64,000 nucleotides of DNA from contig QEVO01000001.1 in NCBI GenBank assembly GCA_003577275.1, positions 434,001-498,000 of the forward strand, in the 5' to 3' direction. The notes under the pieces were generated by a model, which saw nothing but the letters and a program-made list of their open reading frames with translations, was not told the origin of the DNA and did no database searches. The translations under genes and the position numbers were made by a program. The first letter of the stretch is position 1. Each line of letters opens with the position of its first letter. Of the stretch, positions 35,224 through 37,313 are shown piece by piece. Source of the DNA: Pseudomonadota bacterium. GTDB lineage: Bacteria > Pseudomonadota > Alphaproteobacteria > Sphingomonadales > Govanellaceae.

Positions 35224-36054
35224 TTACATACCGCCGCCGGGGCTGGCCCAGGCGTAGCGCATCAGGCCTTCGGTGATGTAGTCAAAGGTTTCGTCCAGGG
35301 AGTCGGTCTTGAAGAACAGGTCAAGATCGCCGGAACTGACCGTGCCATAGCGCACCAGGGCCGGGAAATTCAGCACCTCATCCCAGAATTTGCTGCCGAA
35401 CAACACGATCGGCACCTTCTTGGTCATTTTGCGGGTTTGCAGCAGGGTCAGGATTTCCAGGATCTCGTCCAACGTGCCATAGCCGCCGGGCATGGCGATG
35501 AACGCCTTGGCGAGATAGGCGAACCAGAACTTGCGCATGAAGAAGTAATGGAACTGGAAGCTCAAGTCGCCGGTGATAAAGGGATTGCCGGTATCCTCCA
35601 TGGGCAGCGAGATGCCCAGACCGACGCTTTCGCCGCCGGCTTCCGCCGCGCCGCGGTTGGTCGCTTCCATGATGCCGGGGCCGCCGCCCGAGCAGACCAC
35701 GAAACGGCGCACCGTCTCCTCCAGGGACAGCGACCATTCGGTCAGCCGCCGGGCCAGTTCGCGGGTCGCCTCGTAGTAGACCGACATCTCCAGTAGCCGC
35801 TCGGCGGCGGCGATATCCCCGCCCTCGGCGCGGGCCAGCGCCAGCGCCGCTTCCGCCGCCTCCCGCGATTTCAGCCGTGCCGAGCCGAAAAACACGATGG
35901 TGTCTTGGATACGGTGGCGCTCGAACCGCTCCTTGGGGGCGAAATATTCGGACAGGATGCGTACCGGGCGCGCCGCCGGGCTGTGGATAAAGAGCTCGTC
36001 GGTATAGGCTTTGATCGGTGGCGGCGAGGGGCGGGGGCGCTTGCGATTGGACAT
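35224..36054 (-). CDS. LOG-family (TIGR00730-type) Rossmann-fold protein
   Basis: The 276-residue protein contains the two family signatures: GGGPGIMEATNRGAAEAGG and PGGYGTLDEILEILTLLQT. Members include cytokinin-riboside 5'-monophosphate phosphoribohydrolases (LOG) and nucleotide-5'-monophosphate nucleosidases such as PpnN. This one has a longer N-terminus (KRPRPSPPPIKAYTDELF) and DTIVFFGSARLKSREAAEAA. The substrate is probably a nucleoside monophosphate. It converges with the HD-GYP-like gene with a 2-base gap. Confidence 0.85.
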   Translation of the reverse strand: MSNRKRPRPSPPPIKAYTDELFIHSPAARPVRILSEYFAPKERFERHRIQDTIVFFGSARLKSREAAEAALALARAEGGDIAAAERLLEMSVYYEATRELARRLTEWSLSLEETVRRFVVCSGGGPGIMEATNRGAAEAGGESVGLGISLPMEDTGNPFITGDLSFQFHYFFMRKFWFAYLAKAFIAMPGGYGTLDEILEILTLLQTRKMTKKVPIVLFGSKFWDEVLNFPALVRYGTVSSGDLDLFFKTDSLDETFDYITEGLMRYAWASPGGGM

Positions 36055-36294
36055 GATGAGGCGATACTACAGCGGTTTGCTTTTGGATTGAATTAATTTC
36101 ACACGATCGTCATCCCCGCCTCGAGCGGGGATCCATTTTTGTTTTCAATAAGATGCCGGATGCCCGCTCGGGGCGGGAATGACCATTAGAGTGTCATGCC
36201 AATGGCCACACGCCCCAGCCGGAATCCACAGGCGGAAATATAAAACCGAAATGGTTTCCGATCGCTTGATGACGGCTACGGCCCGCCGGGCGCG
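36055..36294. other. Intergenic region with palindromic repeat
   Basis: This stretch between the LOG-family gene and the small-RNA candidate holds the large palindromic repeat at 36109-36183 and no convincing coding frame. Confidence 0.6.
36109..36183. repeat. REP-like palindromic element, GTCAT-CCCCG family
   Basis: Two 26-base arms, 36109-36134 and 36158-36183, are inverted copies matching at about 23 of 26 positions; the centre is 23 bases, T-rich. The outer boundary GTCATyCCCG is shared with the element at 51964-52033, so this is a dispersed family. Such elements are usually transcribed as hairpins or act as miniature mobile sequences. Confidence 0.8.
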
Positions 36295-36327
36295 AAAAAA
36301 ATGCCCTGCCGCTAAAGCGGCAGGGCA
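36295..36327 (-). terminator. Strong Rho-independent terminator
   Basis: A perfect 12-bp stem, 36302-36313 with 36316-36327 (loop of two bases in the palindrome centre), is followed on the minus strand by six T residues (36300-36295). It lies 264 bases beyond the hydrolase stop codon, too far for a simple terminator, and defines the 3' end of the small-RNA candidate. Confidence 0.85.
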
Positions 36328-36515
36328 ATTGGTGCACAGAGAGATTAAGAGGGAAGGAAGAAAACTTCAGTGTTAATGTCGCTTGCGCACTTGCGTGCGC
36401 CCAACTGAGCCCCATCTCGCCCCACCAGTGACAGAAACCCACGGTGCGACATCAAACACTGCGGCTAATTTTCAGAGCAGAGCCCATCCAACCAGGCCGG
36501 TCACGTTGCCGCGAC
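36295..36515 (-). ncRNA. Candidate FNR-dependent small RNA
   Basis: A minus-strand transcript of about 221 nt is predicted. An FNR/CRP-type box, TTGAT-CTAA-GTCAA (36563 to 36550), is centred exactly 41.5 bases upstream of the start expected from a -10-like TAGGTT (36527-36522). Inside lie a long-range stem, 36368-36374 and 36376-36382 pairing with 36446-36452 and 36455-36461 (14 pairs), and a hairpin GCGCAC-GCAA-GTGCGC (36400-36385) with a GNRA tetraloop. It ends in a 12-bp terminator with a T6 run. No coding frame fits. It could instead be a 3' UTR of the cell-wall hydrolase gene. Confidence 0.5.
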
Positions 36516-36549
36516 ACCCCAAACCTAGCGAATCGCCCCCTCGCCCGAC

Positions 36550-36563
36550 TTGACTTAGATCAA
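36550..36563 (-). promoter_or_regulatory. FNR/FixK-like binding site
   Basis: The minus strand reads TTGAT, four bases, GTCAA; nine of ten bases match the FNR-family consensus TTGAT-N4-ATCAA. It ends 28 bases past the hydrolase stop codon and lies at the class II activator distance from a -10-like hexamer at 36527-36522. Confidence 0.6.
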
Positions 36564-36590: not shown

Positions 36591-37235
36591 TCAGTTGGAG
36601 CTGCGAACCGCCGCCGCCCGGCCATTCTCGCGATAGAAGATGTGCTGGCCGACCCGCGCCGTCTCCACCAGGGCCGGGGCCCAAGTTGGGGCGACATAGC
36701 GGGCATGGTAGTGGGTCGAGGCGTTGGTCACGTCCTCGCCGACCCCGGCCAGGGTCTGCAACGCCACCTCCAGGGAGCGCCGCCAGGCGGTGATATCATG
36801 GGGCCGGTCCGAACGGCCGTCGCAGGCAAAGGAAAACTGGCAGCGGTTCTTTAAGTGTTCGTTTTGGAACACCACGCCGCACACGGTTTGGGGATAGCGG
36901 CGGTCCTTGACGCGGTTGAGCACCACGTGGGCGACGGCGCGCTGGCCGGCATCGCTTTCGCCCCGGGCCTCGAAGTAGACCGCCTGGGCTAGGCATCTGT
37001 ATTGCTGGCCGACAGCGATTTCCCGTTTTGAGACAGTTCCGACCTCGGCGGCGACCGCGCCAAAATAACCCGTCAGCCGCGTCAGACTGGCGACGGTGGT
37101 CGAGATCTGGTTTACGACAGAGCCGCTCTCGGGCGCCGGCTTGGGGGAAATTTCACTTGCCAATGAAGGCGTTAATGCCCCAAGGGTGGTCAGGGTGATG
37201 AGGACTCCAGCGATCGCTGAGATACGTTTCGCCAT
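36591..37235 (-). CDS. SleB-type cell wall hydrolase (exported)
   Basis: The 214-residue protein starts with a signal peptide (MAKRISAIAGVLITLTTLG ending near SLAS) and has a C-terminal Hydrolase_2 domain of the SleB/CwlJ type. Characteristic segments are LAQAVYFEARGESDAGQRAV, HVVLNRVKDRRYPQTVCGVV, QFSFACDG and NASTHYHARYVAPTW. Such enzymes cut peptidoglycan, with the Glu of EARGE as the likely catalytic residue. The start is ATG 37235, because AGGAGA (37247-37242) sits seven bases before it; ATG 37241 overlaps that site. Confidence 0.87.
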   Translation of the reverse strand: MAKRISAIAGVLITLTTLGALTPSLASEISPKPAPESGSVVNQISTTVASLTRLTGYFGAVAAEVGTVSKREIAVGQQYRCLAQAVYFEARGESDAGQRAVAHVVLNRVKDRRYPQTVCGVVFQNEHLKNRCQFSFACDGRSDRPHDITAWRRSLEVALQTLAGVGEDVTNASTHYHARYVAPTWAPALVETARVGQHIFYRENGRAAAVRSSN

Positions 37236-37251
37236 TGTCATTCTCCTAATC

Positions 37252-37313
37252 GGCACGTCAACTCGATCAAATAAGCATCAAGCTTTCATAAAATTGTAAG
37301 CAAATGACGTGCC
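37252..37313. promoter_or_regulatory. Inverted repeat flanking the hydrolase promoter region
   Basis: GGCACGTCA (37252-37260) and TGACGTGCC (37305-37313) are perfect 9-base inverted copies separated by 44 A/T-rich bases directly upstream of the cell-wall hydrolase gene. They could be paired operator half-sites or the base of a leader stem. No clear -35/-10 pair was fixed between them. Confidence 0.4.

Follow-up and report, generated by a model that had tools for sequence, protein, structure and literature searches.

A probable FNR-type small RNA locus of the Govanellaceae, with a predicted promoter shared by three genera and a CU-rich linker shared by two

Small RNAs (sRNAs) activated by FNR are well described in enterobacteria, and FnrL-bound sRNA promoters have been reported in Alphaproteobacteria, namely, those of RSs0019 and RSs2461 of Rhodobacter sphaeroides, which coincide with FnrL ChIP-seq peaks and whose RNAs are called uncharacterised in the excerpted text of that paper (PMC4263372). 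These two are likened to the present locus by description only. In Escherichia coli, the sRNA FnrS is controlled by FNR and represses genes that the cell can do without when oxygen is absent, and FnrS and NarS of E. coli together with PcrZ of Rhodobacter are the functional relatives considered here (excerpted text of PMC8139620). The RNA proposed in this work resembles FnrS in its proposed FNR control and repression, but the RNA itself is unrelated and the host class and candidate targets are different. PcrZ of R. sphaeroides is induced at low oxygen in a PrrA- and FnrL-dependent manner and, like the present RNA, is alphaproteobacterial; however, its FnrL control is possibly indirect and its targets are photosynthesis genes, according to the same excerpt (PMC8139620).

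In this work, we found a candidate locus of this kind in the window, i.e., the whole stretch of 64,000 nucleotides analyzed. It lies in the gap between a SleB-like hydrolase gene and a LOG-like gene (Table 1), which spans 536 bases (ORF end 36591, ORF start 36054) rather than the 537 given in the first-pass annotation of this DNA.

Table 1. Coordinates of the candidate sRNA locus and its neighbors in the window.
Feature	Position	Strand	Remarks
FNR-type box TTGATCTAAGTCAA	36563-36550	minus	one mismatch to TTGAT-N4-ATCAA; 27 nt past hydrolase stop
-10-like hexamer TAGGTT	36527-36522	minus	22 nt past FNR-type box
Predicted structured 5' domain	36368..36515	minus	two hairpins and 15-pair long stem enclosing GCAA-capped hairpin
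CU-rich linker (candidate seed)	36328..36367	minus	40 nt, predicted unpaired
Intrinsic terminator	36295..36327	minus	11-pair hairpin and T7
SleB-like cell wall hydrolase, upstream neighbor	36591..37256	minus	Pfam Hydrolase_2; under NCBIfam SleB cut-off
LOG-like protein, downstream neighbor	35224..36054	minus	Pfam Lysine_decarbox; TIGR00730 94.9 bits, just under cut-off

The FNR-type box is present where the first-pass annotation had placed it. The pattern TTGAT-N4-GTCAA occurs once in the window, as TTGATCTAAGTCAA, with 0.07 occurrences expected and one present in 7 of 100 shuffles. The looser pattern TTGAY-N4-RTCAA has three sites in the 464 kb sampled from this genome, TTGATCTAAGTCAA counted; the other two are located at L232:1549-1562 and L246:3884-3897. 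Given a transcription start at 36515, the gap between the box and TAGGTT places the box center at -41.5, and FNR bound at this position recruits polymerase (class II activation); we infer that transcription starts near 36515. The position and spacing annotated for TAGGTT were reproduced, but this hexamer agrees with TATAAT at only 3/6 positions and a sigma-70 consensus scan called no promoter there. The annotated terminator is also present, although its pairing and T run were computed as listed in Table 1 and not as 12 bp and T6, and terminator-like sites as such are not unusual here (three found vs. 2.5 expected in 2 kb). Between the terminator and the LOG-like gene, an inverted element (GTCATTCCCGC...GCGGGGATGAC, 36112-36190) looks like a dispersed repeat, and a similar one occupies the same place in a genome of the same genus (G001).

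The predicted RNA (36515-36295) would be 221 nt long. Its minimum-energy fold (-89.2 kcal/mol, z -2.76; 2/200 shuffles fold as well) comprises, in order, two hairpins, the long stem around the GCAA-capped hairpin, the unpaired linker, and the terminator hairpin. The long-range stem and GNRA-capped hairpin proposed previously both appear in this fold, and the stem (36461-36446 with 36382-36368) has 15 pairs and one bulge where 14 pairs had been counted. The linker is predicted to be unpaired in the own genome (G000), in G001, and in a genome of a second genus (G002), and presumably stays so in the cell. The Rfam collection includes a model for FnrS, which was absent among the 11 covariance matches at E up to 10, and neither in the window nor in seven related loci did any Rfam family reach its gathering score. 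A weak full-length match to RsaE/RoxS (RF01820; 29.8 bits, E 0.0043) fell far short of the gathering score of 79; the C-rich single strands of RsaE/RoxS pair with ribosome-binding sites, and this is a Gram-positive family, unlike the present host. The first-pass annotation knew of no described RNA at this locus, and our searches agree: besides the lack of an Rfam family, they yielded no publication describing this RNA or an sRNA under FNR control that acts on the paa genes.

For comparison, we used four genomes from three genera of the family, namely, G000, G001, G002, and a genome of the third genus (G003). The gene order of hydrolase, gap, and LOG is common to all four, with LOG always in the same orientation. 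The box is retained in the orthologous gaps of G001, G002, and G003, and a box followed by exactly 22 nt and a -10-like hexamer is found in the orthologous gap of each of the three genera, which argues strongly for conservation of the predicted promoter. When the G000, G002, and G003 gaps were shuffled with dinucleotides preserved, such a pair arose in 1, 0, and 1 of 3000 shuffles, respectively, under a criterion (box with ≤1 mismatch; hexamer with A at position 2, T at position 6, and ≥3/6 matches; exactly 22 nt) whose hexamer part was chosen after the sites were seen and which the window itself fails at 4/6.

Downstream of this predicted promoter, the body of the RNA differs among genera. 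G001 is 98% identical to G000 across 301 bases, and the two 221-nt RNAs differ by one base. The gap of G002 contains TTGACCGGAATCAA, 22 nt, TAGATT, another folded 5' domain, and then GTTTTCCTTCCCTCTAATCTCTCTGTGCACC with the same terminator arms. Compared with G000, its linker is identical in TAATCTCTCTGTGCACC (17/17) and CCTTCCCTC (9/9), and the ten-base terminator arms are also identical. In the gap of G003, TTGATCGAGATCAA is followed after 22 nt by CATGAT and then by a 77-nt body, in which the linker is missing and the end is formed by a T8 terminator. In G003, the box is central in a 44-base near-palindrome (L044:2512-2555; 40/44 positions self-complementary), unlike in the other two genera. 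By sequence comparison, conservation of the linker and terminator thus spans two genera, G003 excluded. The long stem and GNRA hairpin were found in G000 and G001 only, which belong to one genus, and the sequence of the 5' structured domain is not conserved in G002. Because the linker and terminator persist in the second genus behind a different fold, while the stem and hairpin are limited to one genus, the functional part is probably the CU-rich linker, which the first-pass annotation had not singled out and which is a more likely seed than the stem or the GNRA hairpin. The first-pass annotation had named conservation of the stem, hairpin, and terminator in relatives as a check on its proposal. 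The terminator held up in G002, and the stem failed beyond one genus.

A putative FNR-type regulator is present in the genome. A Crp-family protein of G000 (L169) carries CIHCEIRRLAIC (CxxCx7C), a further central Cys, and ETVSR (ExxSR), which we take to be the motifs that define FNR. Its best NCBIfam model is FnrL, at 182.8 bits vs. a cut-off of 300. The orthologue in G001 matches FNR structures from residue 22 (E about 1e-24), and FixK2 scores above these structures, from residue 54 (E 5e-31). On these motifs and matches, we regard the protein encoded by G000 as FnrL-like. The earlier proposal of a single FNR-controlled, terminated RNA is therefore supported in its promoter and terminator by the three-genus comparison and the FnrL-like protein, but not in its emphasis on the stem.

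The conserved gene arrangement could also be read as a cis-acting leader, in which the FNR-type promoter transcribes LOG and the hairpin attenuates read-through. LOG lies downstream in the same orientation in 4/4 family genomes and in G002 and G003 the hairpin is separated from LOG by short distances of about 113 and 100 nt, respectively, but the distance is ~240 nt in G000, where it is occupied by the repeat-like inverted element, and the T tract of the hairpin is complete, with no alternative antiterminator pairing seen in the fold; we consider a leader unlikely. Similarly improbable is that the RNA is the 3' UTR of the hydrolase mRNA, with the terminator ending the hydrolase gene and the FNR-type box being incidental or acting elsewhere. 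The box indeed begins shortly past the hydrolase stop, with no further terminator detected in the interval, but the spacing of the box and the -10-like hexamer recurs in three genera despite diverged intervening DNA. We rejected a small protein gene within the RNA as very improbable, given that the 35-codon frame in G000 and the 39-codon frame in G002 share the same TAA in the linker but differ in frame relative to the conserved linker, encode unrelated-looking peptides, and have no evident ribosome-binding site at either start.

Candidate targets for the preferred reading, a trans-acting RNA, were found by complementarity to the linker. A BLAST search of the 63-nt linker region against the four family genomes gave seven matches, three of which are the RNA loci. 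The remaining four are each antisense to a gene and closely precede its start; the genes are paaI in G000 (E 0.002) and G001 (E 0.015) and, in G001, an E1-alpha-type dehydrogenase gene and a SnoaL-like gene. The paaI gene (TIGR02286, above cut-off) stands in a run with the order paaG-paaI-paaJ-paaK, next to paaN and a PaaH-like gene, and 21/22 positions of its ribosome-binding region are complementary to the linker. In G000, the E1-alpha gene has a 16/16 complement, GAGGGAAGGAAGAAAA, just before its start. In G001, the paaI site is kept without a break across the ribosome-binding core, although the identity of the paaI gene is 79%. Since paaG, on the other side of the site, is 93% identical (166/780 windows of 27 nt unbroken), we take this conservation as no more than suggestive. 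In G003, which lacks the linker, the paaG-paaI junction is short and the site is absent, and no paaI was detected in G002, a genome that is 81% complete.

Shorter patterns, each searched with one mismatch allowed, gave further candidates. The purine 13-mer AGAGGGAAGGAAG has three sites in G000 (the RNA itself, E1-alpha, and paaI), five in G001 (self, E1-alpha, the start of an APH-family ORF, and two without a nearby start of an ORF >50 aa), five in G002 (self, the start of phaC, a start resembling rpsQ, and two others), and none in G003. The reversed 13-mer has 2, 2, 1, and 0 sites in the four genomes, and 4/5 of these lie before start codons; a position at ribosome sites is therefore not specific for the purine half, and we rejected it as proof of targeting. 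For the other half, GGTGCACAGAGAGA, G000 has two non-self sites, both just before starts (the SnoaL-like gene and a P450 gene, the latter 4 nt ahead of the ATG), G001 has two (the SnoaL-like gene and one within a long open frame), and G002 and G003 have none. The reversed GGTGCACAGAGAGA has no site across the four family genomes. The P450 gene follows, in the stretch L250:69-5599 (G000 C2), two ORFs whose best models, below cut-offs, are glycyl radical enzymes; an oxygen-sensitive enzyme type adjoining an oxygen-using P450 would fit opposite oxygen control. In G002, AGAGGGAAGGGAG precedes the start of a class I PHA synthase gene (L156/L216, C52:4654), and the reversed control pattern matches the same site; this gene is a possible target of the linker, on weak evidence.

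Pairing energies were compared with a background of 355 gene starts from 20 sampled stretches and the window. For target genes preselected for complementarity, the pairings of paaI (-40.0 in G000 and -37.2 in G001) and of E1-alpha in G000 (-37.2) were stronger than those of all 355 starts. The pairing of E1-alpha in G001 (-31.5) was equaled or exceeded by 2/355 starts, those of the SnoaL-like gene (-29.7 and -28.4) by 5/355 each, that of the APH-family gene (-27.1) by 6/355, and that of the P450 gene (-26.2) by 8/355. Over the same 355 starts, the minimum was -34.9 for the real linker and -28.9 to -37.4 kcal/mol for one reversed and eleven shuffled linkers, such that the linker, taken as a whole, does not exceed the controls in strength on sampled starts. 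Because control linkers reach similar minima and the genes were chosen for complementarity, the energies rank the hand-picked targets and prove none. A comparison of shuffled linkers with the chosen targets (0/60 as strong in every case) is circular and was dropped as evidence.

Outside the family, we found no convincing counterpart of the locus. With the 301-base query at E <1e-3, only G001 (whole) and G002 (70 bases) were matched among 39 relatives besides the own genome. At E up to 1, some match was found in 32/40 genomes, mostly of 15-40 bases. The core pattern was found in 3/396 genomes of the order, own included, all three of which belong to the family. Covariance model R1 matched 26/240 genomes of the class, counting the own one, at E up to 0.05; none of the eight inspected among the 19 listed outside loci has an FNR-type box, linker, and terminator together, and one outside locus (L209) has a one-mismatch box ~240 nt upstream and no evident terminator hairpin. 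For named LOG loci, 80 were taken from at least 434, and 71 of these have at least 800 upstream bases. The hydrolase motif was found upstream in 0/71, and the same motif detects the hydrolase in 4/4 family loci. A one-mismatch box was found within 900 bases in 2/71 (L068 and L122).

We regard this FNR-type sRNA locus as probably real; its sequence family is new and its kind is known, and the RNA is best filed as a lineage-restricted addition to the FNR-activated sRNAs. On balance, we think it likely that the FNR-type promoter drives the predicted 221-nt RNA, which would act in trans, with the linker probably blocking ribosome-binding sites at low oxygen. We infer FNR binding, transcription, and repression from the features described above. 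When oxygen is low, the FnrL-like protein, its cluster in place, would bind at -41.5 and bring in polymerase. The RNA would then accumulate, and the linker would mask ribosome-binding sites, that of paaI first and perhaps those of the genes after paaI as well. The likeliest first target would be the phenylacetate breakdown unit paaG-paaI-paaJ-paaK; ring epoxidation in this route requires oxygen. Anaerobic control of the paa genes has a precedent in another form, since ArcA keeps these genes off without oxygen in E. coli (excerpted text of PMC3798270); ArcA is a transcriptional repressor there, whereas an RNA is proposed here.

With a conserved promoter, a named seed, and a small set of candidate targets, the question can be tested directly. 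More tentatively, it is possible but somewhat doubtful that the locus represents a family-specific RNA oxygen switch, in which the promoter stayed fixed in three genera while the body was exchanged, and a CU-rich seed shared by two genera silences the phenylacetate unit, the P450, and the dehydrogenase post-transcriptionally. If it is true that the promoter stayed while the RNA was replaced, this would be a clear example of a regulatory RNA turning over while its input stays fixed.
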